NCBI RefSeq assembly: GCF_015554145.1
Contig: NZ_JADNHZ010000002.1
Location: 1-64,000 of the forward strand
Direction: 5' to 3'
Source of the DNA: Collinsella aerofaciens
Lineage (GTDB): Bacteria; Actinomycetota; Coriobacteriia; Coriobacteriales; Coriobacteriaceae
DNA length: 64,000 nt
This document shows, piece after piece, positions 2-38,873 of the stretch (the first letter of the stretch is position 1; the number at the start of each line of letters is the position of its first letter). A program made the translations under genes and the position numbers. The notes below the pieces were generated by a model that was not told the origin of the DNA, made no database searches, and saw nothing but the letters and a program-made list of their open reading frames with translations.

Positions 2-421
2 GGGCCCGCCCAGGCGTGGCTGCTCGCGGACCCCGCGATCCCCCGCACGGTCGACGACGGCCCCTACCGCCTCGCGACCGCCCTCGACGACCGGATGGCC
101 GTGTCGGCCTCCGCATCGGGCTGCTCGCTGTCCTCGGACGCGGGCGCCCTCTACCTCGAGCGCGACGGGGCGACGGGCCTCTACAGGATCTCCTCGGGCG
201 GCCTCCTGCTGACCGAGTCGGGCAACCGGGCGGTGCTGGCCGAGGCGGACGGCTCCGCCTCGCAGCTGTGGCGCGTCTCGGCCCTGGGCGGAGGCCGCCA
301 CTCGTTCACGTCCGCCTCCGGGCTGGCGCTGGACGACCGGGGGCAGCGTACCTCGGAGGGCAACACGGTATGGCTCTACGAGCCCAACGGGGGGCCCGCC
401 CAGGCGTGGGTCCTTACCTAG
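2..421 (+). CDS. C-terminal part of a ricin-type beta-trefoil lectin protein (5' end outside window)
   Basis: The reading frame is open from base 2 to the TAG at 419-421, so only the last 139 residues are present. The sequence shows beta-trefoil features: repeated aromatic/hydroxyl strands (LYLERDG, LYRISSGG, LWRVSALGGG) and two copies of GPAQAW, one at each end, fitting the QxW motif of ricin-B repeats. The two copies are identical over about 19 bases (1-19 and 391-409). Such modules usually form the sugar-binding tail of a secreted or cell-wall protein; the catalytic part is not visible. The stop codon overlaps the stop codon of the converging minus-strand gene (CTAG at 418-421), and there is no terminator between them. 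The domain call is reasonable but rests on motif reading only. Confidence 0.55.
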   Translation, partial: GPAQAWLLADPAIPRTVDDGPYRLATALDDRMAVSASASGCSLSSDAGALYLERDGATGLYRISSGGLLLTESGNRAVLAEADGSASQLWRVSALGGGRHSFTSASGLALDDRGQRTSEGNTVWLYEPNGGPAQAWVLT

Positions 422-1659
422 CCTACAAGACCCTTTAAATACATTTTGACAATCTCCCGACATGATTCAGGGAGAAGCCTTCTTACTAATTTCTTGGTAT
501 AGAAAATTATTCCACGCTCTCGCCTTTTATACATACACTCAACGGAATGCCAACCACCTTCGACAAATGCGTCAATATAGAGCTGTCTGTCTTTTGGAAG
601 AGCGCTCGGGTGGCGGAGCTGATCGTTGCCCTTAGCGATATCGTCAAATTCGACAGGGTACAAGTCCAGAGCGTTGCTGGATTCAATAAACTCCCTGCCG
701 CGGTCGTTATTCACCAGCAGGCAGGAAACGCCCTTCATTTGATTGAACTTCTCGGCATCCTTCAGGACGTCGGGCCTGTTTACATCGACGCCCCAAAAAT
801 CGCCGATAGTAAGATCGCCGGCGCGAAATCTCCCTGCATAGGGACACCTATAGCAGCTATCGCGAAGCGTCTTAAGGTTCAGGAACATGTCGTAGTAGGG
901 GGATTTCGCCGCAGGAATGGTGACCTCTCTTCCGTCCTCAAGAAGAAGAAAAAGAAGGAGAGAGTTACCCCACCCCTCGCGCTTGCACCTAAACCGGAAA
1001 TCAACCACGGGAGACCCAAGCTGTTTGCCATAGCCCTCAACGCAGTCCGCGAACATGCGGCCGGAAGGGACACCGTGACAGACCAGGTCAATAATTGTAA
1101 GGCCCTCATAATCGCGCCCGAGGAAACCCCTAAGGCCGGCGACCTGGCAAGGCGTTCCACAGAACAAGACCCGCCTTCCATCACGAAGGTCCGCCTTCAC
1201 GTCGGCAAAGCAAGCTCCAGCGTCGCTCTGGACATATTTTGAGTTGAGAAGCGGGCGAAGCTCATCAACACTCACAGCACGACGATGCAACACTCGAAGA
1301 GTATTCCCCTCGCGCTCATAGGCAGCACCGTATACGACCCCGCCAGAAGAAATATGCTCACGCGCAACGGAGCCGAAAACTCCGCCGGAAGCGGACTCCG
1401 AGACATCGTCCCTACCGGCAGCGGCAAAGAACGGTCCAGCGGAATTAGAGCCTATCCCCCGGTTGAGGCCGCACGCCCTCGTGCACGCGCCGCAGCCGAT
1501 GCAGAGATCGCTATCAATTGCGGGAAGAACAAACCCATCCTTACCCTCAGACATGGTGATGGCGCTTTTTGGGCAACCAGCGGCACAGGCCCCGCATCCG
1601 CAGCAATGCGATGGCGACTCAAACAGTGTGGGAACTTCGCCCCTTTTCACGGTAGACAT
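418..1659 (-). CDS. Coenzyme F420 hydrogenase/dehydrogenase beta-subunit-like Fe-S protein of a polysaccharide locus
   Basis: This 413-residue protein begins with two 4Fe-4S ferredoxin motifs, CCGCGACAAGCP (about residues 19-30) and CIGCGACTRAC (about 53-63). An FrhB-like C-terminal domain follows, with motifs such as LFCGTPCQVAGLRGFL and CHGVPSG, and a Cys-rich SCYRCPYAGRFR stretch near residue 268. FrhB-family proteins transfer electrons between a flavin/Fe-S centre and a partner. Homologues without F420 metabolism are common beside polysaccharide pyruvyl transferases, as here, and are thought to serve a redox step in glycan modification; the substrate is unknown. It is the last gene of the exopolysaccharide operon, 12 bp after the flippase. 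The ATG is preceded by a GGGGGG-type ribosome site. Family assignment is firm, function is not. Confidence 0.8.
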   Translation of the reverse strand: MSTVKRGEVPTLFESPSHCCGCGACAAGCPKSAITMSEGKDGFVLPAIDSDLCIGCGACTRACGLNRGIGSNSAGPFFAAAGRDDVSESASGGVFGSVAREHISSGGVVYGAAYEREGNTLRVLHRRAVSVDELRPLLNSKYVQSDAGACFADVKADLRDGRRVLFCGTPCQVAGLRGFLGRDYEGLTIIDLVCHGVPSGRMFADCVEGYGKQLGSPVVDFRFRCKREGWGNSLLLFLLLEDGREVTIPAAKSPYYDMFLNLKTLRDSCYRCPYAGRFRAGDLTIGDFWGVDVNRPDVLKDAEKFNQMKGVSCLLVNNDRGREFIESSNALDLYPVEFDDIAKGNDQLRHPSALPKDRQLYIDAFVEGGWHSVECMYKRRERGIIFYTKKLVRRLLPESCREIVKMYLKGLVG

Positions 1660-1671
1660 GCAGTTATCCCC

Positions 1672-3075
1672 CTATTTGCGAGCCGAAACAATCTTACGCA
1701 GGATATCGGCATTCATATAAACGGAAAAAACCAGCGCAATTGCCAGGCAGGCGATCGAGCTTAAGATGCCCGCACCGTAAGCGGACAGATAATAGAAAAC
1801 GAATACGCCGACAATTGAAACTAAAGTTAAAACCTGCTCAACCCGGTCTTCGACAAGCTTCGTAAACTTAGCGACCTTAATCCTGCGGTACTCATTCACG
1901 ACGATCATCGCCAAGAGCGTTGCAACAGATGCACCATAAAGACCGAAGTGCGGAATCAACACAACACACAGAACGGCGCAAAGGGCCGCAGACACCGCAG
2001 TGGTAGTACCCATAATTCCGGTTTCCTTATGTGCGGTAAAGATGCCACCGTAAAAGCCGGAGATGTTGCTGAAGTACGTCGCCAGGAGCAATATCGGCAC
2101 ATACAGCAGGCCCTCACCGAATGAACCCTTAATCAGGATGCCGTACACGAGGGGCATAAGCGCAGACATAAGCAGAACGACGCTCATCATGAAACGCCTT
2201 AGCGCACGATACACAGAGTTATAGAAAGTCGACTCGTCCTCATCGGAGTTGAGGACGCGCGCCGAGCTCTCCTTCCAAGATTGATAGAAGAAGCCATACA
2301 CCTGGTCCATGACACCGGGGAACTTGTAAGAGACGGCGTACACGCCGGCGGCAGAAGCACCGAGCGTATTCATGATAATTAGCCTGTCTAGCAGGTTGTT
2401 AATAGTCCAGGAAACCTTGTTGGGAATGAGCGGAAAGGAATACCGCAGGAGCTCTCGAGCATAGGAAATGGAGAAAGCCGACGGATCGATATAGCGCCAG
2501 AGCTTCCGCATGACCATGAACACGAGGGCAACACCGCCCTGCGCAATAACCGTGGCGGAAAGCATGCCCACAACGCCCCAACGCAGAACAGCGATAAACA
2601 AAACGTTTAGCACGATGGTAAGAGCGCTCGCAGTGAAATTCATGACGGAGTAACCCACGGTATCCCCGAAACCACGTAGGACCGCAGAAGCCATCTGCAG
2701 AAGCGCGCCAGCGACAACAAGGCCCACGACCCAGCCAAGATTTTCTGGCATAAATAGCAACCAGACCAGAATCGCCAAGACCGCAAAGCACGCGCAGCCA
2801 GCAAGAAGAACAGCGCAAGACGCGGTCACGGCCTTAGACCGATCACCATCGGTGCGACAATCGATGAGGAACCGAAACAGTGCTTCATCCATAAGTAGGG
2901 AGACAGCAGGAACGCAGAACAGGGCGATAGTGTTGATGTAGTCGACGGTACCATAGTCGCCAGTGGAAAGAACTGAGGTATAGAGCGGCAGCAGAAGAAA
3001 CGAAACAAGCTTGGTTGCCATTCCGCCCACCGCAATAATGCCAGTGTTCTTAATAAGTCGACGCGTCTCCCCCAT
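1672..3075 (-). CDS. Polysaccharide flippase (Wzx-like, MOP superfamily)
   Basis: This 467-residue protein is almost entirely hydrophobic, with about 12-14 predicted membrane segments. It starts with the RRLIKNTGIIAVGGMATKL stretch typical of MATE/PST-type oligosaccharide exporters. Members flip undecaprenyl-diphosphate-linked repeat units across the cytoplasmic membrane. It sits in the exopolysaccharide operon between the pyruvyl transferase and the FrhB-like gene. Its ATG overlaps the TAA of the upstream gene by one base (TAATG), which suggests translational coupling. Length and topology fit a complete flippase. With an EpsG-type polymerase in the same operon, it points to a Wzx/Wzy-dependent route rather than an ABC-transporter route. 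Confidence 0.85.
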   Translation of the reverse strand: MGETRRLIKNTGIIAVGGMATKLVSFLLLPLYTSVLSTGDYGTVDYINTIALFCVPAVSLLMDEALFRFLIDCRTDGDRSKAVTASCAVLLAGCACFAVLAILVWLLFMPENLGWVVGLVVAGALLQMASAVLRGFGDTVGYSVMNFTASALTIVLNVLFIAVLRWGVVGMLSATVIAQGGVALVFMVMRKLWRYIDPSAFSISYARELLRYSFPLIPNKVSWTINNLLDRLIIMNTLGASAAGVYAVSYKFPGVMDQVYGFFYQSWKESSARVLNSDEDESTFYNSVYRALRRFMMSVVLLMSALMPLVYGILIKGSFGEGLLYVPILLLATYFSNISGFYGGIFTAHKETGIMGTTTAVSAALCAVLCVVLIPHFGLYGASVATLLAMIVVNEYRRIKVAKFTKLVEDRVEQVLTLVSIVGVFVFYYLSAYGAGILSSIACLAIALVFSVYMNADILRKIVSARK

Positions 3076-4151
3076 TACGAAAGCGCCTTTCTAAGATAAG
3101 CGCAGGAATGCTCCCGCAGAGAATCCAGGCGAGAGTCCACGTCACTCCACTCACAAGGGGCAATATCGTCGGCGCACATAACATCGACGCAACGGTCAGA
3201 CAGCCCGATATTACTCAGCAAGTCGCGCATACGCGCACCAGACTTATCAGTCGCATATACGCGGAAGGGCCTATGAAAGAGAACTGAGAATACAGTTGCA
3301 TGAAAGGAATTGGTAAGAATAAGGCTTGCGTGCGCAATAAGCGAGACGAACTCCTCAGGGCCAACACCAAACAGGTTAATAGAATTTGGGATATCTAGGT
3401 TTTTATCAGATATGTAAGCAACCTTCATGCCCGTTGCTTCCGTCATCGCGACGGTGCTCTCAATAAGTTCGGGGCACTCGCGTAGTAGATACATAAATAT
3501 ATATTCACCCTGCAAAACATCTTTAGATGCCATATCTGCGTAGTCGTCAGAATCCAACAAAAGTGTGGGATCTAAGACAACATCTATAGGCGCATCGACA
3601 AGGGTCTGAAATAACGGAACCGTCTCCTCCTCGCGAACAGACAGGAAATCAAACCTTGAGAGCAACTCGGATACAAGCTGTTCATCAAAATTCTCAGGTC
3701 TAAAGTTAGTGTGCGCAAGACTGGGAGCGTAAGCGACTCGACGTCTATCTCCAGCGAATGAAAGGAAATAGGGGCCAACAACACCTTGTGTACAATCGAG
3801 ATTCCATATTTGATCGCTACCACAAATAAAGCAATCAAACTGATCCGCAAGCTCGCACATCTCCTCTTCATTTTGCCAGCGATAAGACTTCTTCGTCATG
3901 ACGAAATATTTATTTGAAAAATCCTCGAATGCAGTCTTTCTTGACAAATACCTATTTAAACAGCGCAATGTTCGCAGCGTTGCCTTTGGATGCCGGAGCT
4001 GAAGCAGCTTATACTGTTCATAATCGTGAGAACGGTAGTCGATAATTTGCACTTCATGTCCCATATTTTCCAAAACCACTTGAAGCGCATGAGACTGAAG
4101 CGCAGACCCGAAGTTCAATGCGCCGTGAAAAGTAATCGTTCCGATTTTCAT
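3075..4151 (-). CDS. Polysaccharide pyruvyl transferase family protein
   Basis: This 358-residue protein opens with MKIGTITFHGALNFGSALQ, the usual start of polysaccharide pyruvyl transferases, and has the mid-protein signature CFICGSDQIWN and the C-terminal LILTNSFHATVFSVLF block. The family transfers pyruvate from phosphoenolpyruvate to a sugar to make acidic ketal-pyruvylated glycans. In gut anaerobes it is often followed by an FrhB-like Fe-S protein, as in this operon. It is cytoplasmic, with no signal peptide or membrane segment. The ATG lies 3 bp after the stop of the upstream glycosyltransferase. The acceptor sugar cannot be told from sequence. Confidence 0.85.
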   Translation of the reverse strand: MKIGTITFHGALNFGSALQSHALQVVLENMGHEVQIIDYRSHDYEQYKLLQLRHPKATLRTLRCLNRYLSRKTAFEDFSNKYFVMTKKSYRWQNEEEMCELADQFDCFICGSDQIWNLDCTQGVVGPYFLSFAGDRRRVAYAPSLAHTNFRPENFDEQLVSELLSRFDFLSVREEETVPLFQTLVDAPIDVVLDPTLLLDSDDYADMASKDVLQGEYIFMYLLRECPELIESTVAMTEATGMKVAYISDKNLDIPNSINLFGVGPEEFVSLIAHASLILTNSFHATVFSVLFHRPFRVYATDKSGARMRDLLSNIGLSDRCVDVMCADDIAPCEWSDVDSRLDSLREHSCAYLRKALS

Positions 4152-4154
4152 TAT

Positions 4155-5318
4155 TTATCTGTTCCTGTTCACCCAAATATTAATTGCATCTGAAACACTA
4201 AGCCCAGAACCCCCCTGCGCCGCAAGGGCAAGAGAAGCGAGAAGATAACGGTTATAATCCGAAGAACGAAGAGATCTCTCGATATCCCTCCATCTGCCGT
4301 TTAACGATGTGTTCTTCGTCTTAAAATCATCAATTGAATTAAACGTGTCGCAACAACAAGCAAACATTGTTTTACGCGCGCTGTTGTCCAAGGTAACGGT
4401 TCTCCCAAGCAAAAGCGGCCCGAACAGAGGAAGAATACGATCGAAGTCTTCCTGAGAGTAAGAAATTCCAAGCTCCGAACGATAAGAAATCAATTCATCG
4501 AGAACCCAATACGAATCAAGGCCCTTAACATTAGTAGGGGTAGACTGCATAATGGATCCAGGACGGATTCGGTAATAATAGCCGCTCAAATCATAACAAG
4601 GCTCATCCTTGAAGAAAGAATCAATCCATAACGGATGAATCAGATCTTCATACCATGCGCCTACGGGAAAACCTAGTCGATTCCAGACTTCACGACGATA
4701 TAGTCTGCCCCACGGCACCATCCAACTAGCTCTATCGTTCTCTATCTCGCCAATCAAACCATCATCAGACATATATCTAAAAGTCGATGTAACGAAATCC
4801 GCAGATGTTTGAACGAGCCTGCTCCACATAGCCTCAAGATACCCTGGCCCGATCATGTCATCAGAATCCACGAACATGATGTACTTACCGCGAGAAACCC
4901 TAAGACCCGCATTGCGCGCTGCGGAAAGACCGCCGTTTACCTGGTGAATTACAAGAACATTGGGCATTAATCCATACGAATCGGCTATAGCACCAGAATC
5001 GTCTTTAGACCCATCATCGACAATAATAACCTCAAACTTGCCAGAAAACTCCTGAGTCACAATGGAGCCTAGACAGGGTTTGAGGTATTTCTCAACGTTA
5101 TACACAGGCACAATAATAGAAATGTCGTAAGATACGCTTTCCTTAAAAACAATCGGCATGAACATATTGGACGGTCTCTGGGAAACCATACTCAGCTTCG
5201 CCTTAGACGCATAGGTTATAGCATCGGAACGACGACTTAACCTGAGTAAACCATCATAAATAGGGCTTGAAAGTAAAAGTTTTATGACTTTCTTAATTGA
5301 ATTAAGAATCTGCAACAA
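4155..5318 (-). CDS. Family 2 glycosyltransferase (exopolysaccharide)
   Basis: This 387-residue protein has a GT-A fold starting near residue 65: ISIIVPVYNVEKYL, then EVIIVDDGSKDDSG (nucleotide-sugar binding), GGLSAARNAG, and the metal-binding YIMFVDSDDM. The N-terminal 60 residues are an extra, basic and hydrophobic region that may contact the membrane. It probably adds one sugar to the lipid-linked repeat unit on the cytoplasmic face. The start is a TTG preceded by GGAGGAG at seven bases, a better ribosome site than any nearby ATG has. A 397-bp non-coding stretch separates it from the preceding operon gene. Donor and acceptor sugars are unknown. Confidence 0.85.
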   Translation of the reverse strand: MLQILNSIKKVIKLLLSSPIYDGLLRLSRRSDAITYASKAKLSMVSQRPSNMFMPIVFKESVSYDISIIVPVYNVEKYLKPCLGSIVTQEFSGKFEVIIVDDGSKDDSGAIADSYGLMPNVLVIHQVNGGLSAARNAGLRVSRGKYIMFVDSDDMIGPGYLEAMWSRLVQTSADFVTSTFRYMSDDGLIGEIENDRASWMVPWGRLYRREVWNRLGFPVGAWYEDLIHPLWIDSFFKDEPCYDLSGYYYRIRPGSIMQSTPTNVKGLDSYWVLDELISYRSELGISYSQEDFDRILPLFGPLLLGRTVTLDNSARKTMFACCCDTFNSIDDFKTKNTSLNGRWRDIERSLRSSDYNRYLLASLALAAQGGSGLSVSDAINIWVNRNR

Positions 5319-5715
5319 TTGACTCCTCCCATCTTTAAAGTCGAATAAAGATGCGTTTCCATCGATTCGGACATTTTAGTCATGATGCCCTATCATGCAA
5401 TCAACAAGACCAATCGCAGACAGCACCCCATAGAGGAATAGGCTACAAACAATAAATCACAAACGTAAGCGTCTATGGCCTCACCCAGAACATGGGGACG
5501 TTGGAGATCTTCTTTGAAAAAGTGCAAAGACCAGCTTCTAAGCATCAACCGAAATAACTAAAGCCCTAGGAATGAATACACTGCACGACAGAACCAAGTC
5601 CTCTATGTCGGTTCAATCGTAAATGCTCGCTCTTAGTCGAAAGCTAAGGACAGGCTTGGTCAAGCATAATAATGCTCCATCTAAAGATATTAGTAAAAAG
5701 CAATAATGACCTGCA
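5319..5715 (-). other. AT-rich non-coding gap inside the exopolysaccharide operon
   Basis: About 400 bases lie between two glycosyltransferase genes that read the same way. I see no reading frame with a ribosome site and no clear hairpin with a U tract. The stretch is AT-rich like its neighbours. It may hold an internal promoter or the remains of a lost gene; neither can be shown from the sequence alone. Confidence 0.4.
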
Positions 5716-6711
5716 TTATAGAAAGAGACGACGGAGGTATTTAAAGCTGCTTAGTATGTGCCGAGCAGCAAAAGAAACGATACTGCAATTTGACAAAACA
5801 AGACTATGAATATAGTCCGGACAATTGCTGATTCGCCTCTGATACTCGCTTTTAATTGTTTTATCAAATTGTCTTTTCACCTCTTTATCCACTTCACAAT
5901 GCCAAAGAACTTCATCAAGATCACAATAGTGTCGACAGATACCCCTATTGGCATTTTTGACTGAATCGCTCGACCATTCACTCGCATAGCGAATCAATTC
6001 GTCGCTTACAAAGCTCCAATCAGTTATCTGATCTTCTTTAAACTGCTTCGTACTATTAGCGTCATGCTGACGATAGTAGTAAAGCGGTTCGTCAATGTGA
6101 AATAAACTCTTTGCAATATCGAAAACAGGAAGAAGTTGGCAAAGATCCTCACCGTGCATAAGGCCAACTCGTTTCGAGTACCACTCGTCACTGGCAAATA
6201 AATCTCTCCGAATGACCTTATTCCAAACACTATTGAAATCGCATCCGCACAACAGGCTTTTAACAGCATTAAATGATTCACCCGTATGCATACCAGAACA
6301 GATATCAACTTTTAACGAGGGTTTTATAGGCATCAATCCCATAGTGAAATCAAATGAAATGATATCAGCACCAGTCGAGGCAATTACATCGCATACCTTT
6401 TTAATGCAACCTTCAAGAAGAGCGTCATCGGAGTCGAGCGAAAGAATATAACGCCCACTTGCCTCGCGAAGACCGTCTCGTCGTGCAGCGAGAAGACCTT
6501 CGTTGTCCTTGTGAATAACGAAAGCTCTCTCGCGCTTGTTGCAATAAGCATCGCAGATCTCAGGAGATCCATCGGTGGAACCATCATCCACAAGAATCAC
6601 CTCAAAAGAGCCGGTTCCTTGAATATCAATAGATTCCAGACAAGCGGGGAGAAAACGCTCGGTGTTATATACCGGTACAACAATACTGATGTCAGGCGTT
6701 TCGTCATGCAT
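5716..6711 (-). CDS. Family 2 glycosyltransferase (exopolysaccharide)
   Basis: This 331-residue protein has the GT-A core at its very start: ISIVVPVYNTERFLPACL, EVILVDDGSTDGSPEI, NEGLLAARRDGL and RYILSLDSDDALLEG. The rest contains the usual acceptor-side region with conserved Tyr/Arg (LYYYRQHDANS). The substrate is unknown; it probably extends the repeat unit. The ATG follows GGAGTTATTT, and its first eight bases overlap the 3' end of the EpsG-like polymerase gene, implying coupled translation. GC content is low, as in the rest of this operon. Confidence 0.85.
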   Translation of the reverse strand: MHDETPDISIVVPVYNTERFLPACLESIDIQGTGSFEVILVDDGSTDGSPEICDAYCNKRERAFVIHKDNEGLLAARRDGLREASGRYILSLDSDDALLEGCIKKVCDVIASTGADIISFDFTMGLMPIKPSLKVDICSGMHTGESFNAVKSLLCGCDFNSVWNKVIRRDLFASDEWYSKRVGLMHGEDLCQLLPVFDIAKSLFHIDEPLYYYRQHDANSTKQFKEDQITDWSFVSDELIRYASEWSSDSVKNANRGICRHYCDLDEVLWHCEVDKEVKRQFDKTIKSEYQRRISNCPDYIHSLVLSNCSIVSFAARHILSSFKYLRRLFL

Positions 6712-7819
6712 AAATAACTCCTAATAGTGCCGACGAATACGGAAAAAGATCGCAACTGCCGCCATATACAAACGTAATGACAAAATAAAACACGAAAAAT
6801 AAAACACCCAGTGCCCCAGTTAGAAACCGCTCTCTGCCAAGGTTTTCAGACAAAAAGGGGTAAACAAAACCTGAAATGAAAAGAAAAGGGAAACTCAGTC
6901 GAATTAGCTCAGGACTGATGCTCGCAAGTTGAGCGAATAGGGAAGAAATTATGCCGCTGCTCGTATAGAAATTAAGCGTCCATCGATCGAAGCTCGTGAT
7001 CAAACCCTTGCTGCCTAACATCCATATAGCAAGGCAAAATAGAAAATAAATAAGCATTGTGGTATTAAATGAGCCCATTCCAGCGTGTTTGATCTGAAAG
7101 CTATATGACGACGTAAATAGAGATACGAGCTCCATTACATCCGGGCCAATCATAATCACACAAATAGAAAAAATGATAACGCCAACGCATGCAAGAAGTG
7201 CAACGGTCTTATACGAACGTTCGCGCCCGCGGTTGAAGCATGAAATATAAATAATCCAAATAAAAAGTCCCATGATAGACATCTTGTGAAAGCCAACTGC
7301 AAGAAACAAAAAAACAATAGCGGGGCCGCGTTTCTCGCGGAACAGCTCATAGACCATCATGACGAGCATACTAGTAGCAATACATTGCCTAATTATGTTT
7401 AACGTATAACCAAACACAACGAAACAAAGAAAGAAACCTACGATAGGATACCCGCGAGGATACAACTTTCTAACAACTAAAATATAGGGAAGGAGAACGA
7501 TGGCTTCACAAAGAAAAAGAACAGCGTGGAAATCACCAGTCAGTCTTCCCAGAATCCAGAAGAGAATCACGAATAGCGGCTCTTGATCTGAGCAAGCACC
7601 CATAGCACCTGTGAGCGAATAATACTGCGAGGCATAAAAACACCTGAGGGGATATGCCGAGGTATCGGTACCGACAGATGCATCACGCAACCCCGCCACC
7701 AAGGAAAGGGGGAGAACCGAAATAACCGCAAGAAGAAAACTGACGTGCTTATTAGTTATCTTTACCGAAAAATATAGCAATACAATATGGGACACAAAGG
7801 CAATGAAGTAGATTGGCAT
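6704..7819 (-). CDS. EpsG-family polysaccharide polymerase (Wzy-like)
   Basis: This 371-residue protein is very hydrophobic, with roughly ten membrane segments and a conserved early loop GLRDASVGTDTSAYPLRCF (about residues 63-81). The GTD.Y pattern is characteristic of the EpsG family. EpsG/Wzy proteins polymerise undecaprenyl-linked repeat units on the outer face of the membrane. It stands between two GT2 genes and overlaps the next one by eight bases. Together with the flippase at 1672-3075 it completes a Wzx/Wzy pathway. The call comes from topology plus the GTD motif. Confidence 0.8.
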   Translation of the reverse strand: MPIYFIAFVSHIVLLYFSVKITNKHVSFLLAVISVLPLSLVAGLRDASVGTDTSAYPLRCFYASQYYSLTGAMGACSDQEPLFVILFWILGRLTGDFHAVLFLCEAIVLLPYILVVRKLYPRGYPIVGFFLCFVVFGYTLNIIRQCIATSMLVMMVYELFREKRGPAIVFLFLAVGFHKMSIMGLFIWIIYISCFNRGRERSYKTVALLACVGVIIFSICVIMIGPDVMELVSLFTSSYSFQIKHAGMGSFNTTMLIYFLFCLAIWMLGSKGLITSFDRWTLNFYTSSGIISSLFAQLASISPELIRLSFPFLFISGFVYPFLSENLGRERFLTGALGVLFFVFYFVITFVYGGSCDLFPYSSALLGVIYA

Positions 7820-8013
7820 CTCTACACCTGCTTTGTATATCGTTTGTAAACTGTTGATTTTCCTCCGGTTGAAACCGTGTCGAAAACACCAACATAACAG
7901 TTAAAACCATCTTGAAAGTAAATGTTATACAAAAAGCCGCCGTGGCATTCAGTAACGTTAAACAAATGCGCGCTAGTCGAAAAAATCATCTTATCAACCT
8001 TTGATTATAGGAG

Positions 8014-9006
8014 TTACCCGATTGCCTTACCAGAAATTGCAGCATATAACGCATAGAAAGCGTTATGAACCCTAGGAGAGATAGAAAAGAGAGCACAACG
8101 CAGTCTCCATTTTGAACAAGCATATGGGTTCTTCGATGCCCTCCAAGCAAGCCCTCGAGCATTCCTCAAATAATTCTGGGCCTCAGCCTTATCATCAAAT
8201 CCGTCCGGATCAACCCTCATTGCAACGCGGAGCGTACAGAATGACTGGAAGCACTCAAACTCGCCCTGAAATTCAGGCTCGGCAAATTGTCGAACGGTCT
8301 CAATAGCCCTGTCCATGTCTTTAGCATGCTTGGAACCCTGGTTCTTGAGCGTCGTAATGGAGCCAGGTCTCGTCACGTATGCATAGAAGCACGCATCAGA
8401 GAATGCAACCTTTTGAACTTTGGAACAAATGTTAGCAATTACACCCATGTCTTCGAAGAGCTGCCCCTCAGGAAAGACAAGGTCGCTAATAAGAGATCGT
8501 TCAAAGAGCTTTCCGCAAGCAGAACCACTCTCACCGGTTAATAAAAGAAGTTTTCGAAAATGCTCAATTCCAGATTCAACATGGAATTCTACATTCTGAC
8601 CTATCTTATAGTTATCAAGGACAGGCGTCTTCGCAAAGGAGCCGATAACGAGCGGAACTTGATACTTGTCAGCCGCTTCGACCATCAACTCAACAGTTCG
8701 CGAATCGATCAAATCGTCCCCATCAACATACATGACATAATCACCGTGGCACCTTTGAGTACCAAAGTTACGCGCAGAAGAAAGACCGCCGTTCTCCTTA
8801 TGCAAAATCTTAAATCGCGTGTCTGACCCAACGGCATCTTCAATAAGGTCGATAGTATTATCAGTACATCCATCATCTACGATAATATATTCGATATTCG
8901 AATAAGTCTGACCAAGCAATGAGTTTACGCAAGGAAGCGCGAACATACCCACGTTGTACACGGGGACAATGACACTAACCAGAGGCTTATCAATATCAGA
9001 AGCCAT
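8014..9006 (-). CDS. Family 2 glycosyltransferase (exopolysaccharide)
   Basis: This 330-residue protein has the GT-A motifs VSVIVPVYNVG, IEYIIVDDGCTDNT, GGLSSARNFG and YVMYVDGDDLID, followed by the GSACGKLFERSL and LFEDMGVIANI blocks found in many EpsJ-like enzymes. It is likely cytoplasmic and membrane-associated. The ATG is preceded by AGGAGGTCC about nine bases upstream. It starts four bases after the previous operon gene. A 194-bp AT-rich gap without a visible gene follows before the polymerase (7820-8013). Sugar specificity is unknown. Confidence 0.85.
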   Translation of the reverse strand: MASDIDKPLVSVIVPVYNVGMFALPCVNSLLGQTYSNIEYIIVDDGCTDNTIDLIEDAVGSDTRFKILHKENGGLSSARNFGTQRCHGDYVMYVDGDDLIDSRTVELMVEAADKYQVPLVIGSFAKTPVLDNYKIGQNVEFHVESGIEHFRKLLLLTGESGSACGKLFERSLISDLVFPEGQLFEDMGVIANICSKVQKVAFSDACFYAYVTRPGSITTLKNQGSKHAKDMDRAIETVRQFAEPEFQGEFECFQSFCTLRVAMRVDPDGFDDKAEAQNYLRNARGLAWRASKNPYACSKWRLRCALFSISPRVHNAFYALYAAISGKAIG

Positions 9007-9010
9007 ATAT

Positions 9011-9844
9011 CTAGGACCTCCTGAGAAAATGACGATATATCAACGCTCTAACGGAATTTGGCATCAGACAGACAACGGCATGCGGCAAATAAGAACAGAT
9101 ATAATCACGTTTTGTGAAATAGCCACGCTCAACTTGAGCCTGCTTAAATGCTTTAGCGTACTTAAGATACTGCGAGCCGCCCCTACGAGCATAGAAATCC
9201 TCACTAACGCGCATCGCAACAAGCGGTTCCTTCAGGTTATCCGCCTTGCAGCCACATGCGAGCATCCTGTTAAAAAGATCCCAATCCTCAAAGTAGAGAA
9301 AGTCGGAACTGTAGTTACCAGCCTCCATAACTTTCGACTTTTTAAACGTCATGGGAGGATGACGGAAGGGATTTCGCCTTTTGGAATAAGAACGTATAGC
9401 ATCGATGCCCTTGGGAAGGTCCGTGGCCGCAACAGGTTCATTGGGAGACGTGACGAATTCGATAACATCGCTTCCGACCATATCGAGCCCGCCATCAATA
9501 GCGGCAAGCTGTTTCTCCATACGATCCGGACGAGCTATATCATCAGTGTCCATGCGTGCAACAATTTCGTTAGAGCAAGCAAGCATGCCTTGGCGCAATG
9601 CATACCCAAGTCCATGGTTTTTTTCATACGAAACAAAATTGAACAGTCCAGGATGCAGGGAGTCATAATCTTGGAGCACATCTTCAAGCTCATGCGTAAG
9701 CGGACCATCCTTGACCATGACGATCTCAGCAGGAGAAACCGTTTGATTCAGCACGCTGTCTAAAGCCTGAATTAAATAGGCAGGATTTTCTTTTTTGTAA
9801 ATGCTCATCAACACACTATAAGAAGAAGTAAGGTTTGTCTGCAT
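9011..9844 (-). CDS. Family 2 glycosyltransferase (amylovoran-type)
   Basis: This 277-residue protein has motifs YSVLMSIYKKENPAYLIQAL, EIVMVKDGPL, HGLGYALRQGM and ARMDTDDIARPDRM. This is the variant of the GT2 core seen in AmsE/WcaA-like polymerising transferases, where MSVYxxE replaces VPVYN. It probably makes the second transfer of the repeat unit, since it directly follows the priming sugar transferase (one base between stop and start). It is cytoplasmic. The donor sugar cannot be stated. Confidence 0.85.
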   Translation of the reverse strand: MQTNLTSSYSVLMSIYKKENPAYLIQALDSVLNQTVSPAEIVMVKDGPLTHELEDVLQDYDSLHPGLFNFVSYEKNHGLGYALRQGMLACSNEIVARMDTDDIARPDRMEKQLAAIDGGLDMVGSDVIEFVTSPNEPVAATDLPKGIDAIRSYSKRRNPFRHPPMTFKKSKVMEAGNYSSDFLYFEDWDLFNRMLACGCKADNLKEPLVAMRVSEDFYARRGGSQYLKYAKAFKQAQVERGYFTKRDYICSYLPHAVVCLMPNSVRALIYRHFLRRS

Positions 9845-10552
9845 CTATCGCCCCGTTCTCTTCTTGCCGAACATGGCACCGAAGGTGCCGGTAAAGCACT
9901 TCAAATCCATGCGGAAGCAGCGGTTCTGAACGTAGCGAAGTTCTATCTTTTGCCTCAGACCACTCTCAAAGGTCGCTTCATTACGATCAGTCGCTTGCCA
10001 AAGTCCAGTAATTCCAGGCTGAACTGAGAGCAGCTCAGCCTTTTCTTCATCCGAAAAATGCTGTTCAAGCTCATCCCTTGTAATGGGACGGGGACCAATG
10101 ACTGAAAGATCGCCGTTCAGCACATTGAGAAACTGAGGCATCTCATCGATGGAGCATTTACGAATGAATTGACCAATCTTGGTAATGCGGGGATCATCGT
10201 TGACTTTGCGTTCGACTTCCCACTGATGTAGCTGCTCAGGACTTAAATACTTCTGCACATCACCCGCATCGGCAACCATGCTACGAAGCTTTAAAATCTT
10301 GATTGTTTTTCCGCCCTTGCCAACGCGCTCTTGCGTATACATAGGGTTGCCAGGCGACTCAAGGCAAATGAGCGCGCACACGATGGCGATGGGGATAAGC
10401 AGCAATACACTCATCAAAAGACTGAATACAAGGTCAAACAGCCTCTTAAATAAGCGGTAGCCAAGCGTACCGCTCGGTTTAATCTCTTTAATAGCCAGTG
10501 CATCCTCCACAGATACACAGCTCTCTGTTACTTCTTTAGCAGCCACAGTCAA
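9845..10552 (-). CDS. Undecaprenyl-phosphate sugar phosphotransferase (priming enzyme)
   Basis: This 235-residue bacterial sugar transferase has a basic amphipathic entry (YRLFKRLFDLVFSLL), one hydrophobic reentrant helix (about residues 38-60), then the conserved core: PMYTQERVGKGGK, IKILKLRSMV, DPRITKIGQFIRKCSIDEMPQ, NVLNGDLSVIGPRP and QPGITGLWQ. These enzymes transfer a sugar-1-phosphate to undecaprenyl phosphate to begin each repeat unit. The start codon is a TTG with an AGGAA ribosome site that lies inside the 3' arm of a hairpin (10559-10576), so its translation may be controlled. It is the first structural gene after the antiterminator. Confidence 0.9.
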   Translation of the reverse strand: MTVAAKEVTESCVSVEDALAIKEIKPSGTLGYRLFKRLFDLVFSLLMSVLLLIPIAIVCALICLESPGNPMYTQERVGKGGKTIKILKLRSMVADAGDVQKYLSPEQLHQWEVERKVNDDPRITKIGQFIRKCSIDEMPQFLNVLNGDLSVIGPRPITRDELEQHFSDEEKAELLSVQPGITGLWQATDRNEATFESGLRQKIELRYVQNRCFRMDLKCFTGTFGAMFGKKRTGR

Positions 10553-11221: not shown

Positions 11222-11311
11222 CTCTCGCCCCCTCTTTTTGCTTTGCGATGCACGCAAATGCAGGGGCGTTTAGAACAGGCTTCTCGCTCGCAGCTAGGCG
11301 CAGTCGCAAAA

Positions 11312-11433
11312 GTACAGGTTTTTGTATCTTTCGACATAGGCAATTATAGGAGCAATTAATCAAAGATTGCCCAGATTACGCAAAATGTCCTGCCGGTAGA
11401 TACATCTCCATACCCCTCTACAAAAACCTGTAC
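11312..11433. repeat. Perfect 15-bp inverted repeat flanking a promoter-like spacer (candidate invertible promoter)
   Basis: GTACAGGTTTTTGTA at 11312-11326 is repeated exactly in inverse orientation at 11419-11433, with a 92-bp spacer. In its present orientation the spacer holds a perfect TATAAT on the minus strand (11343-11348), pointing at the antiterminator gene. The -35 match at 17 bp is poor. This arrangement is that of phase-variable promoters of surface polysaccharides. No dedicated invertase gene is adjacent. Confidence 0.55.
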
Positions 11434-11452
11434 CTTTTTGTGCAACAAAAAA

Positions 11453-11471
11453 AGCCGCTCAACCAGCGGCT
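11453..11471. terminator. Bidirectional hairpin between thrS and the glycan operon
   Basis: AGCCGC pairs with GCGGCT around a short loop. There are seven A before it and TTTTCTT after it, so it can act on either strand. It lies downstream of the first thrS terminator. Confidence 0.7.
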
Positions 11472-11493
11472 TTTCTTATTTCGTCATGAAAAA

Positions 11494-11520
11494 GGCGACC
11501 GCCCTCTGTGGACGGTCGCC
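11494..11520 (-). terminator. Rho-independent terminator of thrS
   Basis: GGCGACCG pairs with CGGTCGCC. Read on the minus strand the stem is followed by TTTTTC, about 25 bases after the thrS stop. Confidence 0.85.
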
Positions 11521-11545
11521 TTTGTTAATTGTTGTGAAGTTTGCC

Positions 11546-13309
11546 TTAGGCGCGAGTCTTGATCTCCTCGGTCACCTTCGCAACAAACTCATCAACGCTC
11601 ATCTGAACGGTCTCGTTGGAGCGATCGCGGACGGAGATGTTGCCGGCCTCGACCTCCTTCTCGCCCAGGATGAGCATGTAGGGCACGCGGTCGATACTGC
11701 GGGCCTCGCGGATCTTGTAGCCGATCTTCTCGTCGCGGTCGTCGCAGACCACGCGAATGCCGGCCTCCTCCAGCTTGGCGCACACCTCGTGGGCGTAGTC
11801 GCGGCTCTTCTCAGAGACGGGAAGCGCCTTGACCTGCACCGGAGCCAGCCAGGTGGGGAACTTGCCCGCAAAGTGCTCAATCAGAATACCAATGAAGCGC
11901 TCGATGGAGCCAAAGCACACGCGATGCAGCATGATGGGGCGCTTCTTGGAACCGTCGGCGTCCACATACTCCAGGTCAAAGTTGAGCGGCATCTGGAAGT
12001 CGAGCTGCACGGTACCGCACTGCCAGGTACGGCCGAGCGAGTCCTCCAGGTGGAAGTCGATCTTGGGGCCGTAGAAGGCACCGTCGCCCTCGTTGACTTC
12101 GTAGTCCATGCCCAGCTTCTCCAGAGCGGTACGCAGGCCCTCCTCGGCGCGCGCCCAGTCCTCGTCGGAACCCATGGAGTCCTCGGGGCGGGTGGAAAGC
12201 TCAACGTGGTACTTAAAGCCAAACTTCTGGTACACGGAGTCGATGAGGTTGACCACGCCCACGATCTCGTCGGTCAGCTGGTCGGGACGCACAAACAGGT
12301 GGGCATCGTCCTGGTTAAAGCAGCGCACGCGGAACAGACCGTGCAGGGCGCCGCGCAGCTCGTGGCGGTGCACCAGGCCAATCTCGCCGGCGCGAATGGG
12401 CAGCTCGCGGTAGGAGTGCGGCTTGGAGGCGTACACCAGCACGCCGCCCGGGCAGTTCATGGGCTTAATGCAGTACTCTTCGTCGTCGATGACGGTGGAG
12501 TACATGTTGTCCTTGTAGTGGTCCCAGTGGCCCGAGGTCTTCCACAGCTGCTTGTTCATGATGATTGGCGTGGAGATCTCCACGTAGCCGGCCTTGTGGT
12601 GAATCTCGCGCCAGTAGTCCAGCAGCGTATTCTTAAGGATCATGCCGTTAGGCAGGAAGAACGGGAAGCCGGGGGCCTCGTCGCGCATCATAAAGAGGTC
12701 CATCTCGCGGCCGATCTTGCGGTGGTCGCGCTTCTTGGCCTCCTCCAGCATGTGCATGTGCTCGTCGAGCTCTTCCTTGGTGGCAAAGGCGACGCCGTTG
12801 ATGCGGGTGAGCATCTTGTTGTCCTTATCGCCCTTCCAGTAGGCGCCCGAGACGCCGGTGAGCTTAAAGGCCTTAAGGGCCTTGGTGTAGCAGATGTGGG
12901 GGCCGACGCACATGTCGATGTAGTCGCCCTGCTGGTAGAAGGTGATACGGGCGTCGTCGTCCAGGTCGCCGATGTGCTCGACCTTGTACTTCTCGCCGCG
13001 CTCCTCCATAAGGGCGATGGCCTCGGCGCGGGGCTTCTCGTACACGGAGAACTTGAGGTTCTCCTTGACGATCTTCTTCATCTCGGCCTCGATCGCGGGG
13101 AAGTCGTCCTCGCTGATCTTGACGCCCTCGGGCAGGTCGACGTCGTAGTAGAAGCCGTTGTCGGTCGCGGGACCGTAGGCAAAGTCGGCCTCGGGGTACA
13201 GGCGCTTGATGGCCTGCGCCATGATGTGCGCGGCGGAGTGGCGGATGACGTGCGTGACCTCGTCCTGCGGGAGCTCGGCCACCGAACCGTCATTGTAGAG
13301 TGCCTTCAT
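11546..13309 (-). CDS. thrS: Threonyl-tRNA synthetase
   Basis: This 587-residue cytoplasmic enzyme charges tRNA-Thr. The editing domain is near the start: VTHVIRHSAAHIMAQAIK carries the HxxxH zinc-site pattern, with YVDMC-type IDMCVGPHI near residue 150. The class II catalytic core follows: HRHELRGALHGLFRVRCFNQDDAH (motif 2 region), CIKPMNCPGGVLVY, and motif 3 at LHRVCFGSIERFIGILIEH. The C-terminal anticodon-binding domain starts near WLAPVQVKALPV. The protein has only about 20 residues before the editing domain, so the N-terminal TGS domain of the 640-residue E. coli enzyme is missing. GAGGAG precedes the ATG. No T-box leader is recognisable upstream. Confidence 0.95.
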   Translation of the reverse strand: MKALYNDGSVAELPQDEVTHVIRHSAAHIMAQAIKRLYPEADFAYGPATDNGFYYDVDLPEGVKISEDDFPAIEAEMKKIVKENLKFSVYEKPRAEAIALMEERGEKYKVEHIGDLDDDARITFYQQGDYIDMCVGPHICYTKALKAFKLTGVSGAYWKGDKDNKMLTRINGVAFATKEELDEHMHMLEEAKKRDHRKIGREMDLFMMRDEAPGFPFFLPNGMILKNTLLDYWREIHHKAGYVEISTPIIMNKQLWKTSGHWDHYKDNMYSTVIDDEEYCIKPMNCPGGVLVYASKPHSYRELPIRAGEIGLVHRHELRGALHGLFRVRCFNQDDAHLFVRPDQLTDEIVGVVNLIDSVYQKFGFKYHVELSTRPEDSMGSDEDWARAEEGLRTALEKLGMDYEVNEGDGAFYGPKIDFHLEDSLGRTWQCGTVQLDFQMPLNFDLEYVDADGSKKRPIMLHRVCFGSIERFIGILIEHFAGKFPTWLAPVQVKALPVSEKSRDYAHEVCAKLEEAGIRVVCDDRDEKIGYKIREARSIDRVPYMLILGEKEVEAGNISVRDRSNETVQMSVDEFVAKVTEEIKTRA

Positions 13310-14246: not shown

Positions 14247-15407
14247 TTACCTGCTGGTTTGTTGGGAAATATCCCAATTTATCCCAAGCGCGTCGCAAAC
14301 GGAACGCGCTACCTGCTCACGGGAGGAGCGAATATAGTGTCGCCCCGACACACCCGGCAGGGAGTGGCCCATGAGCATCTCCATGAGGTCCCAGGGCATG
14401 TGCAGCTCCATCACGCAGATGGTTCGCCACGAGTTGCGGAGATTCGACCATGGGATGTGCTCGATGCCCTCGGCCTCGCACCATTTCTTCCATCTATGAT
14501 TGCACATCCCTCGGTTCATGGGCAGCCCGTCCCCGCAATCTGCTAGCCACTCGGAGCCTGCCGCGCGGCGCTCGCCTGCAATTTCGAGCAGGCGCCCGGC
14601 GGCATCCGGCAGCACCACGACGGTGCGTATGGACTTCCGCGTCTTGAGTACGCCGTCCGCCGTGGACTCGATGCCCGCTTGCTCCATCTGGCGCACGAGG
14701 TCGACCGTTGCGAGCGTTGTTGATCCTGCCGCGAATGGCAAGACCTCATCGGTACGGATGCCCAGCGACTCGCCCGAGCGACACGATCCAAAGCACGCCA
14801 TGATGAACGGCGCCTCGAGCGAGGTCCCGTGTAGCCGCCCCAGAATGCCCTTTGCCTCGGCGAGCGCGTACAGGCGCTTGGAGCGCTCGCGCGTCTTGCG
14901 CGTGGGCATGGTGTATTTCACGGTGGCGGCAAACGGGTCGATGGGCAGCACGACAAAGCCCGACACGGTGCCGTAAATCTTGCGCAAGGTGAGTAGGGCA
15001 GTGTCTGCCGTTGCTGCGGGGAGAGTCAGGAGCCATTCCTGCAGGTGCATGGGGCGCAGTTGGTCGACCGGCATCGAGCCCCACGCGGGGCCGACATAGT
15101 TTGTCCACGACCTTGAGACGAGGCTGCGGGTGTTCAGCGTGAGCTTGCCCACGGCGACCTGCGCCGCCATGGTCGGCTCGAGCCATGTGCCGTATGCCTG
15201 GGCGATGGTCGGCACCGGCTTGTCATCGGCACGCTCGACGTGGATGCGGTCGAGTTCGGCGCATGCCTCGCGATAGGTGCCGTACACCGTCTTGGTCTTA
15301 CGTTTGCGTCCGCACGGCGTGTTCTACTGCCATCGGAGGATGTATTTCTTGCCACGCTTGGCCTCGGTGATTGAGCCCCACGCGCGGCGCCTCTGCTTGC
15401 GTGTCAT
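14247..15407 (-). pseudogene. int: Tyrosine recombinase (phage-type integrase) interrupted by an amber codon
   Basis: The frame reads MTRKQRRRAWGSITEAKRG (arm-binding domain), reaches a TAG at 15321-15323 after LRWQ, and continues without frame change as NTPCGRKRKTKTVYGTYRE. It then runs through the SAM-like core-binding region and the catalytic domain, with SCRSGESLGIRTDEV carrying the first catalytic Arg, then WSNLRNSWRTICVMELHMPWDL and LMGHSLPGVSGRHYIRSS carrying the HxxR and the Tyr. Reading through the stop gives a normal-length integrase of about 386 residues. As it stands the gene is broken by one nonsense codon, unless the codon is read through or translation restarts at 15287. It lies at the left edge of the element with a putative att site in its 3' end. 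Confidence 0.8.
14269..14292. other. Putative left attachment site
   Basis: ATATCCC, a variable centre and TTATCCCAAG plus GCG inside the 3' end of the integrase gene resemble 18439-18463 in direct orientation, with a ten-base identical core. The inverse complement of 14268-14282 is also found exactly at 18399-18413. Exact core and boundaries are uncertain. Confidence 0.35.
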
Positions 15408-15544
15408 ATAATGTTCCAAGGTTGCCCGGAGGTATCTCCGTGTTACTCCGGCATCCTTGCTATCACCCCAACGCGCCAAGGTTCCAGCCGTGCGCGGTGG
15501 GGTTTCTTTTCGTTTAAGGTCTCCAATCTCCATAACGTGTTCGG

Positions 15545-15574
15545 TTTACATTTTGTTGCAATGCGGCATAATAT
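15545..15574 (+). promoter_or_regulatory. Plus-strand promoter upstream of a candidate small RNA
   Basis: TTTACA at 15545-15550 and TAATAT at 15569-15574 are separated by 18 bp. A hairpin with six T follows about 60 bases downstream. Confidence 0.45.
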
Positions 15575-15580
15575 GGGTAG

Positions 15581-15639
15581 CCCTTTGCTTAAAGCTCAGG
15601 ACGTGGCCAGCCTCGGAGCCGAAATCCGGGGCCTTTTTT
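15581..15639 (+). ncRNA. Candidate small RNA within the integrated element
   Basis: A promoter-like sequence just upstream and a GC-rich hairpin ending in TTTTTT at 15634-15639 bracket about 60 bases with no reading frame. The segment lies between the integrase and the cargo gene ending at 15638. It matches no RNA family that I recognise, so this is a structural inference. Confidence 0.35.
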
Positions 15640-16138
15640 ATGGGCGGATTTTCTCCACCAGCTCTCCTCTTTCGCTAATCTTGCAGGAATATTTTTTGTC
15701 CCCTGGATAGGCTGTTCTGAGGACATAGCCCTTTTTCGTTACGCCGAGGATAACGACATAGTCTTGATCGATTCCGGATGCGACAACTTGAACTTTGTCT
15801 TCGCGGCCCCTTTGCCTTTGAAGGTAAACGTTGGCGGGCACCCTGCCCTCCACTGTTGCTTTTAGGACCGGAAGCCTCACAACCCTGTTGAGATCAAGAT
15901 TGACCAATGGGTTGAATTGCTCTCTGCTCTTCCCGTGCTTTGAGACGAGATGTAGCCATGTCGACTCGTATTGCATGTTTGTCACGGGGAACCCATCCCA
16001 TGCAACAAGGTCCAGCAGATTGTCGTCATAGTATTCTCTTGAGAGATGTGACGCGCGCAGCATATCGCATGTAAGGCCTTGGTAGCAGGGCCCAAGGTCG
16101 AGATGCCCGTCGCGGTCGAGTGAGTATCCTGTTCGCAT
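15638..16138 (-). CDS. Unknown element-encoded protein with nuclease-like C-terminus
   Basis: The protein is 166 residues and unrecognised. The start ATG at 16138 shares one base with the stop of the upstream DUF3800 gene (TGATG), so the two are probably translated as a unit. The C-terminal half, LKATVEGRVPANVYLQRQRG then DYVVILGVTKKGYVLRTAYP, has a basic strand followed by a VVILG-x-KKG-x-LRTAYP hairpin. This resembles the last strands of Barnase/EndoU/RelE-like (BECR) RNases of toxins and phages. That is a weak pattern match, not an assignment. No membrane segment or signal peptide is seen. It is the last cargo gene before the integrase. Confidence 0.6.
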   Translation of the reverse strand: MRTGYSLDRDGHLDLGPCYQGLTCDMLRASHLSREYYDDNLLDLVAWDGFPVTNMQYESTWLHLVSKHGKSREQFNPLVNLDLNRVVRLPVLKATVEGRVPANVYLQRQRGREDKVQVVASGIDQDYVVILGVTKKGYVLRTAYPGDKKYSCKISERGELVEKIRP

Positions 16139-16905
16139 CACATATTCCTTCGTCCACGAAAGTGGAACACGTTGAACTTCTGCTCGGAAGGCCATGTCTC
16201 ATAGCTCGCGAGGGTACTTGTATTTAAATTTCGACAGATGTCTCGGCATATTTGCAATTTTGCGGCACTTGACCCTTCGAGCTGCAGGTGTCCATTCCTT
16301 GAGGCGGCAAGGGCTCCGATGAATAAGTCTGCGAGCTGTATGAGGTCGTTCTCATGTGACTCGACTTCTTCGACAAATTTTACCGAGTTGCCAAATTGGA
16401 ATGTGTCGATCAGGCACCTCCTCAATGTGTCCACTCGGTCACGTTCGTCAATGCGGCGATCGATAAATAGGCGGTATGAGTCTCTCCTGTCAAGCCAGTT
16501 GTTAAATACCTGGTAGTAGACCTTCTGAAACATTTCCTCAGTATCATCGAAGTTTGTCTCGCGCCTACTGACAACGACTGCGCGGAATCTCAGCTCGGAG
16601 TTTGAGAAGAACAGGTCAACCAAAGCCTGAAAGAAGGAAAGTCTGGACGGGCACACCGTTTTCCACCCGAATTCTCCCTGCACGTTGTAATAGGCCCTGA
16701 GTCGGTCAACCGTCCTTACAATCTCTCTCTTTTGGTCCAAGGGGCACATGATGCCTCCTATGGCCATAAAATCGTCTGCAAGAGAAGATGTGACGCAGCT
16801 TTCGTCACAATAAACGTTGTAGGTCGTGCGCTCCTCGTTTATATGCGCGGCATCACTTCCTGCTTCGCAGTTCGCCCGGACATCATTCGTGTTTAGCGGT
16901 CTCAT
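16138..16905 (-). CDS. DUF3800 domain protein
   Basis: The protein is about 255 residues. The N-terminal YNVYCDESCV strand carries the conserved Asp-Glu of DUF3800, AIGGIMC is the next strand, and the C-terminal ESHENDLIQLADLFIGALAA is the family's (D/N)xxxQLADxxxG signature. DUF3800 proteins have an RNase H-like pattern of acidic residues and are frequent on prophages and defence islands; their activity is not established here. I prefer the ATG at 16905 (after GAAGAAGGG); a GTG at 16977, five bases after the upstream stop, is possible. It overlaps the next gene by one base. It is probably cargo of the element. Confidence 0.75.
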   Translation of the reverse strand: MRPLNTNDVRANCEAGSDAAHINEERTTYNVYCDESCVTSSLADDFMAIGGIMCPLDQKREIVRTVDRLRAYYNVQGEFGWKTVCPSRLSFFQALVDLFFSNSELRFRAVVVSRRETNFDDTEEMFQKVYYQVFNNWLDRRDSYRLFIDRRIDERDRVDTLRRCLIDTFQFGNSVKFVEEVESHENDLIQLADLFIGALAASRNGHLQLEGSSAAKLQICRDICRNLNTSTLASYETWPSEQKFNVFHFRGRRNM

Positions 16906-16982
16906 GTGATCGCGCCCTTCTTCGGATTGCCAAATTTGTATCAGATATCGCGGTGCTAACGATTTGATTCGCGGCACCGCAC

Positions 16983-17522
16983 CTAGGCGCCGAAGAGCTT
17001 CGCGAGCACACCGAGGGCCACCAACGCCTTGGGTACGAGATCCACGCTCTTCGTTGCAAGGTCGATGACCCTTACAGCGTGTTCGGCGAACCCTGCCCTG
17101 TTCTTCGCCTCGGCTGCCATGCGTGCCCGCGACAGCGCCAGCTCGAGTGCCTCTTTCGTCTCGTTGTCGAGAACGGGGTCGTTGCCGATTTCGGTCACCG
17201 CCTGGCTTACCTCTACCGAAACGTCTGCCGTCGCCGTGGCCTGCGAGACGCTGCTGGAGCTAACCGTCGTGCCGTTTCCGCTGTTCGTGAGCGTGGCCAT
17301 GTTTGCCACGAGCCATCCCTTTGCGCGCTTTACGCCATCCAGAGTCTTGTCTCTGGGAATTGTTAGCGATCCGGTGCACCTGAGCGGGAAGGAAAACCCT
17401 TCCATCTGCAGCATGAGGTCGTCGATGTGTTCCTGGGTGCTCTCACCATAATCTCCCGCAGTGATGCAGTCACACTCGTAGATGAGATCCTCCACGTGCG
17501 TCTCCGCTAATGATTGAGACAT
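16983..17522 (-). CDS. Unknown element-encoded protein with hydrophobic C-terminal tail
   Basis: The protein is 179 residues and unrecognised. The N-terminal 75 residues are acidic and globular (VEDLIYECDCITAGDY, SFPLRCTGSLTIPRD). The middle is a Ser/Thr-rich low-complexity linker (NSGNGTTVSSSSVSQATATA). The C-terminus is a helical stretch with an amphipathic start (ETKEALELALSRARMAAEAK) and a hydrophobic end (PKALVALGVLAKLFGA). GGAAGGAG precedes the ATG. It lies 40 bp downstream of the XRE repressor and directly upstream of the DUF3800 gene, within one minus-strand run. A membrane-acting effector would fit the tail but is only a guess. Confidence 0.6.
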   Translation of the reverse strand: MSQSLAETHVEDLIYECDCITAGDYGESTQEHIDDLMLQMEGFSFPLRCTGSLTIPRDKTLDGVKRAKGWLVANMATLTNSGNGTTVSSSSVSQATATADVSVEVSQAVTEIGNDPVLDNETKEALELALSRARMAAEAKNRAGFAEHAVRVIDLATKSVDLVPKALVALGVLAKLFGA

Positions 17523-17562
17523 TGTTATTACTCCTTCCCATAAATGAATTGAATAACGCGGC

Positions 17563-38723: not shown

Positions 38724-38753
38724 AAGTGCGGCGGTATTTTACCAAACTAGCAG

Positions 38754-38863
38754 GGTAGTCTTTTTGGGACGGGGCTTTTTAGCTGCCCCATCCGGAGCCC
38801 TCAAAGCTTAAGACATATTTGACATAAGGTAGCTAAAAAAAGCCCCGTCCCAAAAAGACTACC
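38754..38863. repeat. Large palindrome (element C) with 31-33 base arms
   Basis: The left arm at 38754-38784 (GGTAGTC, TTTTTGGGACGGGGC, TTTTTAGCT) and the right arm at 38831-38863 are inverse complements apart from a two-base A-run difference. The AT-rich centre is 46 bases. It lies between selC and element A copy 2. The 38473-39177 gap holds selC plus elements C, A and B only. Confidence 0.8.
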
Positions 38864-38873
38864 CCGGTGTCGT

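Follow-up and report, generated by a model that had tools for sequence, protein, structure and literature searches.

In Bacteroides fragilis, capsular polysaccharide promoters upstream of UpxY antiterminators are inverted by Mpi (PMC4747536, PMC11892184). LoaP systems are known from dfn and mln of Bacillus velezensis, and no promoter inversion is described for them (PMC12691694). In Eggerthella lenta, reversible megabase inversions of capsule clusters involve loaP and the repeat GATAAGCGCGGTTATG, with no recombinase identified, and the authors contrast the megabase inversion with short promoter inversions (PMC13174815). According to the hCom2 survey, whose main text does not name Collinsella, Actinobacteriota contain many invertons; no description of Collinsella invertons was found in the literature search, and an uncommented catalogue entry in the hCom2 supplementary tables is possible.

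The locus described here lies in a 64,000-nt stretch of Collinsella DNA (the window; genome G000) and is in all likelihood a phase-variable promoter inverton, flipped in trans by a small serine recombinase and controlling loaP and the exopolysaccharide (EPS) genes (Table 1). The preliminary description had likened its layout to the phase-variable capsule promoters of Bacteroides, and it does match the Mpi/UpxY switches in layout and logic: a short promoter that can invert precedes a polysaccharide operon and its NusG-paralogue antiterminator, and a (here putative) serine recombinase is encoded in trans. Unlike those switches, it occurs in another phylum, has another repeat, and involves a LoaP-like protein rather than UpxY; the Collinsella genome contains one site versus 13, and the recombinase, with 39.1 and 52.7 bits against NCBIfam PRK13413, comes nowhere near the 272 bits required for the Mpi family. 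The combination of invertible promoter, NusG-paralogue antiterminator and polysaccharide operon known from Bacteroides thus recurs in a second phylum, where recombinase and site are different ones, suggesting either convergence or the exchange of a module. As in B. velezensis, a LoaP-type NusG paralogue with a structured leader is tied to a long biosynthetic operon. In contrast to that system, no UNCG-type hairpin is evident in the folded Collinsella leaders, and the product of the gene earlier called LoaP-type is LoaP-like with NF033641 as its best-scoring family, yet its 87.4 bits lie below the cut-off of 125. The E. lenta system shares the class Coriobacteriia, loaP and capsule genes, inverted repeats and surface variation, but its megabase inversion is a different mechanism from a 114-bp inverton. 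With Hin, Gin and resolvase-type recombinases, the candidate enzyme shares the PF00239 domain, the YARVS motif, a C-terminal helix-turn-helix and a 2-bp core in palindromic sites, whereas no enhancer is identified for Collinsella and the enzyme belongs to a lineage of its own tied to Coriobacteriia loaP loci.

Table 1. Features of the candidate inverton, its surroundings and the recombinase gene (positions refer to the window unless a contig is given)
Feature	Position	Strand	Remarks
Remaining EPS cluster: glycosyltransferases, EpsG-like polymerase, pyruvyl transferase, Wzx-like flippase, Fe-S/FrhB protein	418..9844	-	
Priming sugar transferase (Bac_transf), first EPS gene after loaP	9845..10552	-	
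LoaP-like NusG-paralogue antiterminator, 196 aa	10631..11221	-	NCBIfam NF033641, E 1.2e-24, 87.4 bits
loaP leader between inverton and gene	11225..11311	-	conserved; small hairpin
loaP-proximal arm GTACAGGTTTTTGTA	11312..11326	+	kept in relatives; proposed core dinucleotide AC at 11314-11315
Invertible segment, 114 bp (115 in G025)	11316..11429	.	ON here; two orientations among relatives
-10 box TATAAT of the putative invertible promoter	11343..11348	-	TATAA invariant in 17/17 spacers
thrS-proximal arm	11419..11433	-	proposed core GT at 11430-11431 (plus strand)
Two G+C-rich hairpins with T-tracts, thrS-inverton interval	11444..11523	.	inverted repeats; kept in relatives
thrS, conserved upstream neighbour, same direction	11546..13309	-	
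Serine recombinase, 201 aa	G000:C9:4735-5337		PF00239 resolvase domain, E 4.9e-30, 105 bits

The two 15-nt arms are perfect, stand 92 bp apart and lie exactly where they had been placed; when extended, they reach 19 nt at 95%. Inverted repeats of 15 bp at 50-300 bp spacing arose in 5 of 200 windows simulated by a first-order Markov model, and the real window contains a few more at such spacing, so that conservation is a stronger argument than the chance estimate. The repeat is kept downstream of thrS in one clade of the Collinsella aerofaciens group, and the exact pair occurs in 12 of the 45 genus genomes, with pairs bearing single mismatches in more. A genome-wide site search of G000 recovered the exact pair once, the two arms being the only exact matches, and its further near matches are single sites with one or two mismatches. 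A generic search for a degenerate two-site pattern found nothing. Further exact matches in G008 and G035 stand alone, within a palindrome upstream of a pgsA-like gene, and form no inverton. The other repeats in the window could invite the reading of a chance or terminator-like feature unlinked to inversion; its probability is close to nil, as the repeat is conserved in place with both orientations across relatives, and the reversed spacers described below already refute chance. Elsewhere in the window, two long inverted-repeat (MITE-like) elements (38753-38864 and 38890-39017) lie between a selenocysteine tRNA gene and a selB-like gene, and their 15-mer ATCTACTACGTTTAA is present in four relative loci as well.

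Along the minus strand, thrS is followed by the hairpins, the inverton, loaP, the priming transferase and the remaining EPS genes. The exopolysaccharide operon proposed earlier is borne out, and the host, then described as Coriobacteria-like, belongs to the C. aerofaciens group as judged by named close relatives. The loaP gene is 93-97% identical among relatives, while the EPS genes behind it differ: one locus (L060) carries the entire cluster at 85-99% identity, and others share just the priming transferase or distant relatives of the genes. The switch, loaP and leader thus appear to be kept while the sugar cassettes are exchanged. Upstream of thrS, the region 14247-17946 holds a weak tyrosine integrase with DUF3800-like and XRE-type genes nearby and is probably a small integrated element.

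Orthologues of loaP at 93% identity or more were found in 19 genus genomes, and the region upstream of each was extracted from the relatives to set the orientation. Seventeen intact invertons were obtained, 11 with the promoter toward loaP (ON: G000, G001, G006, G008, G009, G010, G011, G013, G027, G035, G036) and six reversed (OFF: G002, G004, G005, G019, G020, G025), so the inverted orientation, whose absence from related genomes would have spoken against a switch, is present in six relatives. In G002 and G005, both OFF, the mutated arm contains TATAAA. The closest opposite pair is G010 (ON) and G019 (OFF), whose flanks are 97.9% identical (1550/1583); their spacers agree at 113/114 positions only when one is reverse-complemented, versus 51/132 as they stand. 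OFF genomes are interspersed with ON genomes on the flank tree. The 114-bp promoter segment is very probably an on/off switch for the surface-sugar operon, a reading that rests on orientations compared between species-level genomes. Such comparison of sequences establishes the repeat, both orientations, the crossover position, the conserved -10 box and the co-occurrence with a recombinase, and flipping within one clone may be inferred from it. The C. aerofaciens group, abundant gut Actinomycetota, thereby gains a plausible DNA switch for surface polysaccharide, and since site, segment, candidate recombinase and target operon are all named, phase variation is testable by PCR.

All of these orientation comparisons being between genomes, the arms could also be a static regulatory palindrome or hairpin, with the opposite orientations left by rare historical inversions and no ongoing phase variation. 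Some lineages do appear locked. Downstream of thrS, G022 (L169) retains a decayed OFF relic with mutated arms and -10 and only the first codons of loaP, which is a fossil of a locked-off locus, and the recombinase gene of G013 is interrupted. The flank tree nevertheless shows several separate flips, one of them between the 97.9% identical flanks with a single spacer difference; the arms are identical in 12 genomes, and the recombinase is almost invariant. Moreover, the contigs of G003 and G032 end inside the spacer and that of G033 ends in an arm, as mixed orientations could cause. A static element is therefore very improbable, and an active switch is preferred. As a separate observation, the spacers of G007 (L125, with an apparent target duplication) and G003 (L121, L167) share one mobile-element end (GTTGATTTCCGATCTCAGCCGAACACATTGAGC), inserted at GGAGATG, and this end is also found inside the G013 recombinase gene (at the end of L165); these three insertions are candidates for natural locked switches.

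The position of the crossover can be read from natural variants. In some relatives, a G in the inner portion of one arm is replaced by A, and this variant, TTTTTATA, stands beside the GAGGGG end of the spacer, near thrS in G008 (ON) and near loaP in G002 and G005 (OFF). Immediately outside GTAC, the two sides have different bases, which stay in place. Since the inner-arm variant moves with the spacer and the outer flank base stays, the exchange lies within GTACAGGTTTTT. This stretch contains AC, the probable centre of the imperfect palindrome ACAAAAAGGT-AC-AGGTTTTTGT, as would be expected for a serine recombinase. At loci with an adjacent recombinase, the site pattern is AAAAGGT-AC-ACCTTTT, and its outer half AAAAGGT-AC is also present in this window. 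The inverting segment was given earlier as 11327-11418; its best definition is 11316-11429 (114 bp), with the AC/GT core dinucleotides as its bounds.

As noted before, no invertase gene adjoins the inverton; a serine recombinase is encoded on another contig. The genome profile search found exactly one PF00239 gene in G000, and a recombinase elsewhere in the genome, which the preliminary description had proposed to look for, is thus at hand and co-occurs with the locus. The protein has a YGYARVS motif, found throughout its aligned homologues save those with FGYARVS, and its nearest solved relatives are Sin and gamma-delta resolvase. The gene sits between RNB/S1 (RNase R-like) and VanZ-like genes, flanks that are conserved across the clade. 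Its orthologues are 99-100% identical in 18 genomes and 88-92% identical in G013, G022, G027, G033 and G035, the gene of G013 being split by an insertion. In each of the 23 orthologue carriers, the inverton or a truncated or relic form of it is linked to thrS; 19 of these genomes have loaP, and the other four are G003, G032, G033 and G022. The 22 other genus genomes revealed no recombinase orthologue, no site pair and no loaP orthologue at 90% identity or more, the region downstream of thrS having been read directly in two of them. The co-occurrence has a Fisher p of 7e-11 (conservative table 21/0/2/22, uncorrected for phylogeny) and is confined to one clade, so it partly reflects shared ancestry. 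We infer that this recombinase, acting in trans, flips the inverton.

The promoter could also be inverted by a tyrosine recombinase, XerC/XerD or another, instead. Core XerC and XerD occur in all genus genomes, the site contains a TACA-N6-TGTA symmetry readable as a tyrosine-recombinase site, and in this clade the serine recombinase is not adjacent to the inverton. However, the genus-wide list of tyrosine recombinases shows only XerC/XerD-like genes in all genomes, and none of the other tyrosine recombinases of G000 resembles a core, conserved invertase; the one at 14250-15287 was rejected as a weak integrase near a DUF3800-like element. In other genera, loaP invertons are adjoined by serine rather than tyrosine recombinase genes, and the sites at these recombinase-adjacent loci have the palindromic form around a 2-bp core that is typical of serine recombinases. 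Inversion by a tyrosine recombinase is thus considered quite improbable, and the trans-acting serine recombinase remains the preferred candidate. Besides, a tyrosine integrase gene (G000:C30:6688-7218, L052) with at least 12 relatives bears one in-frame TAG within a frame whose length of 328 aa is common to many species, and is either an old shared pseudogene or a case of read-through.

Similar arrangements extend to more distant LoaP genes in Collinsella, Adlercreutzia and Atopobiaceae. Fourteen of 15 such genes are preceded by a AAAAGTACAC-type inverted repeat, whose spacer of 105-131 bp holds a -10 box facing one way or the other. A recombinase homologue (about 61-64% identical) lies directly upstream of the inverton in eight loci, and a ninth, L084, is truncated; these arrangements occur in C. 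tanakaei, C. ihumii, Adlercreutzia and Atopobiaceae. The spacers of C. tanakaei L081 (OFF) and an Atopobiaceae MAG, L082 (ON), are identical at 112/119 positions only after reverse complementation, versus 39/172 as they stand. In the recombinase tree, the trans recombinase falls near the inverton-adjacent ones. In G042, a homologue adjoins an inverton (L153, G042:C11, 4170-4320) that precedes the gene for a large surface protein containing FctA-like and DUF7601 domains, possibly a phase-variable pilin or adhesin, which indicates that the recombinase family is not confined to polysaccharide loci. A second serine recombinase paralogue (about 62-64% identical) is carried by G019, G006, G001, G036, G035 and G032 (L147-L152); at L147 and L149, the two loci that were read, lipoprotein-like genes lie downstream of it, and no clear inverted repeat was found near it in C. 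aerofaciens.

The TATAAT box in the spacer points at the antiterminator gene, as previously proposed, whereas its distance from the gene start is about 121 bp and not about 90 bp. The conserved loaP start, ATG at 11221, has a Shine-Dalgarno-like stretch rich in purines; a distance of 90 bp fits a TTG at 11257. The -35 region is weak, as had been noted, and no sigma-70 site passes a consensus scan; the best candidate is a TGGGCA/TGGACA-like hexamer 19 nt upstream of the -10 box, and an activator may possibly act at this promoter. The spacers contain a second conserved block, CATTTTGYGYAATCTGGG, upstream of TATAA, and GGGGTATGGAGATG at their far end. In the proposed mechanism, the serine recombinase would bind the two inverted sites and cut at the central AC/GT dinucleotides, and the 114-bp segment between the cuts would be inverted. 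In the ON state, as in G000, the -10 box faces loaP, and a transcript beginning near the inner edge of the site would cross the leader into loaP, whose LoaP-like product may enable RNA polymerase to read through the long downstream EPS cluster. In the OFF state, the promoter would face the thrS terminators, leaving loaP and the EPS genes silent. Orientation would in this way set loaP-EPS expression. The two G+C-rich hairpins downstream of thrS are likely its terminators and would insulate the switch.

For ON transcripts of most genomes, folding predicts a hairpin that spans the inverton boundary; in G008 the prediction is weak. It would form in this orientation only, where the spacer end GTCGAAAGATACA pairs in RNA with the flank TGTACTTTTGCGAC at the 5' end of loaP mRNA. 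The recombination site might then double as an RNA element, for example a hairpin for LoaP loading or stability, and couple DNA orientation to antitermination, a speculation from modelled folding that we regard as unlikely. The leader itself is very conserved, and its overall folding is not unusually stable. Its small hairpin is paired in every sequence, and one subclade shows two compensatory base-pair changes in it.
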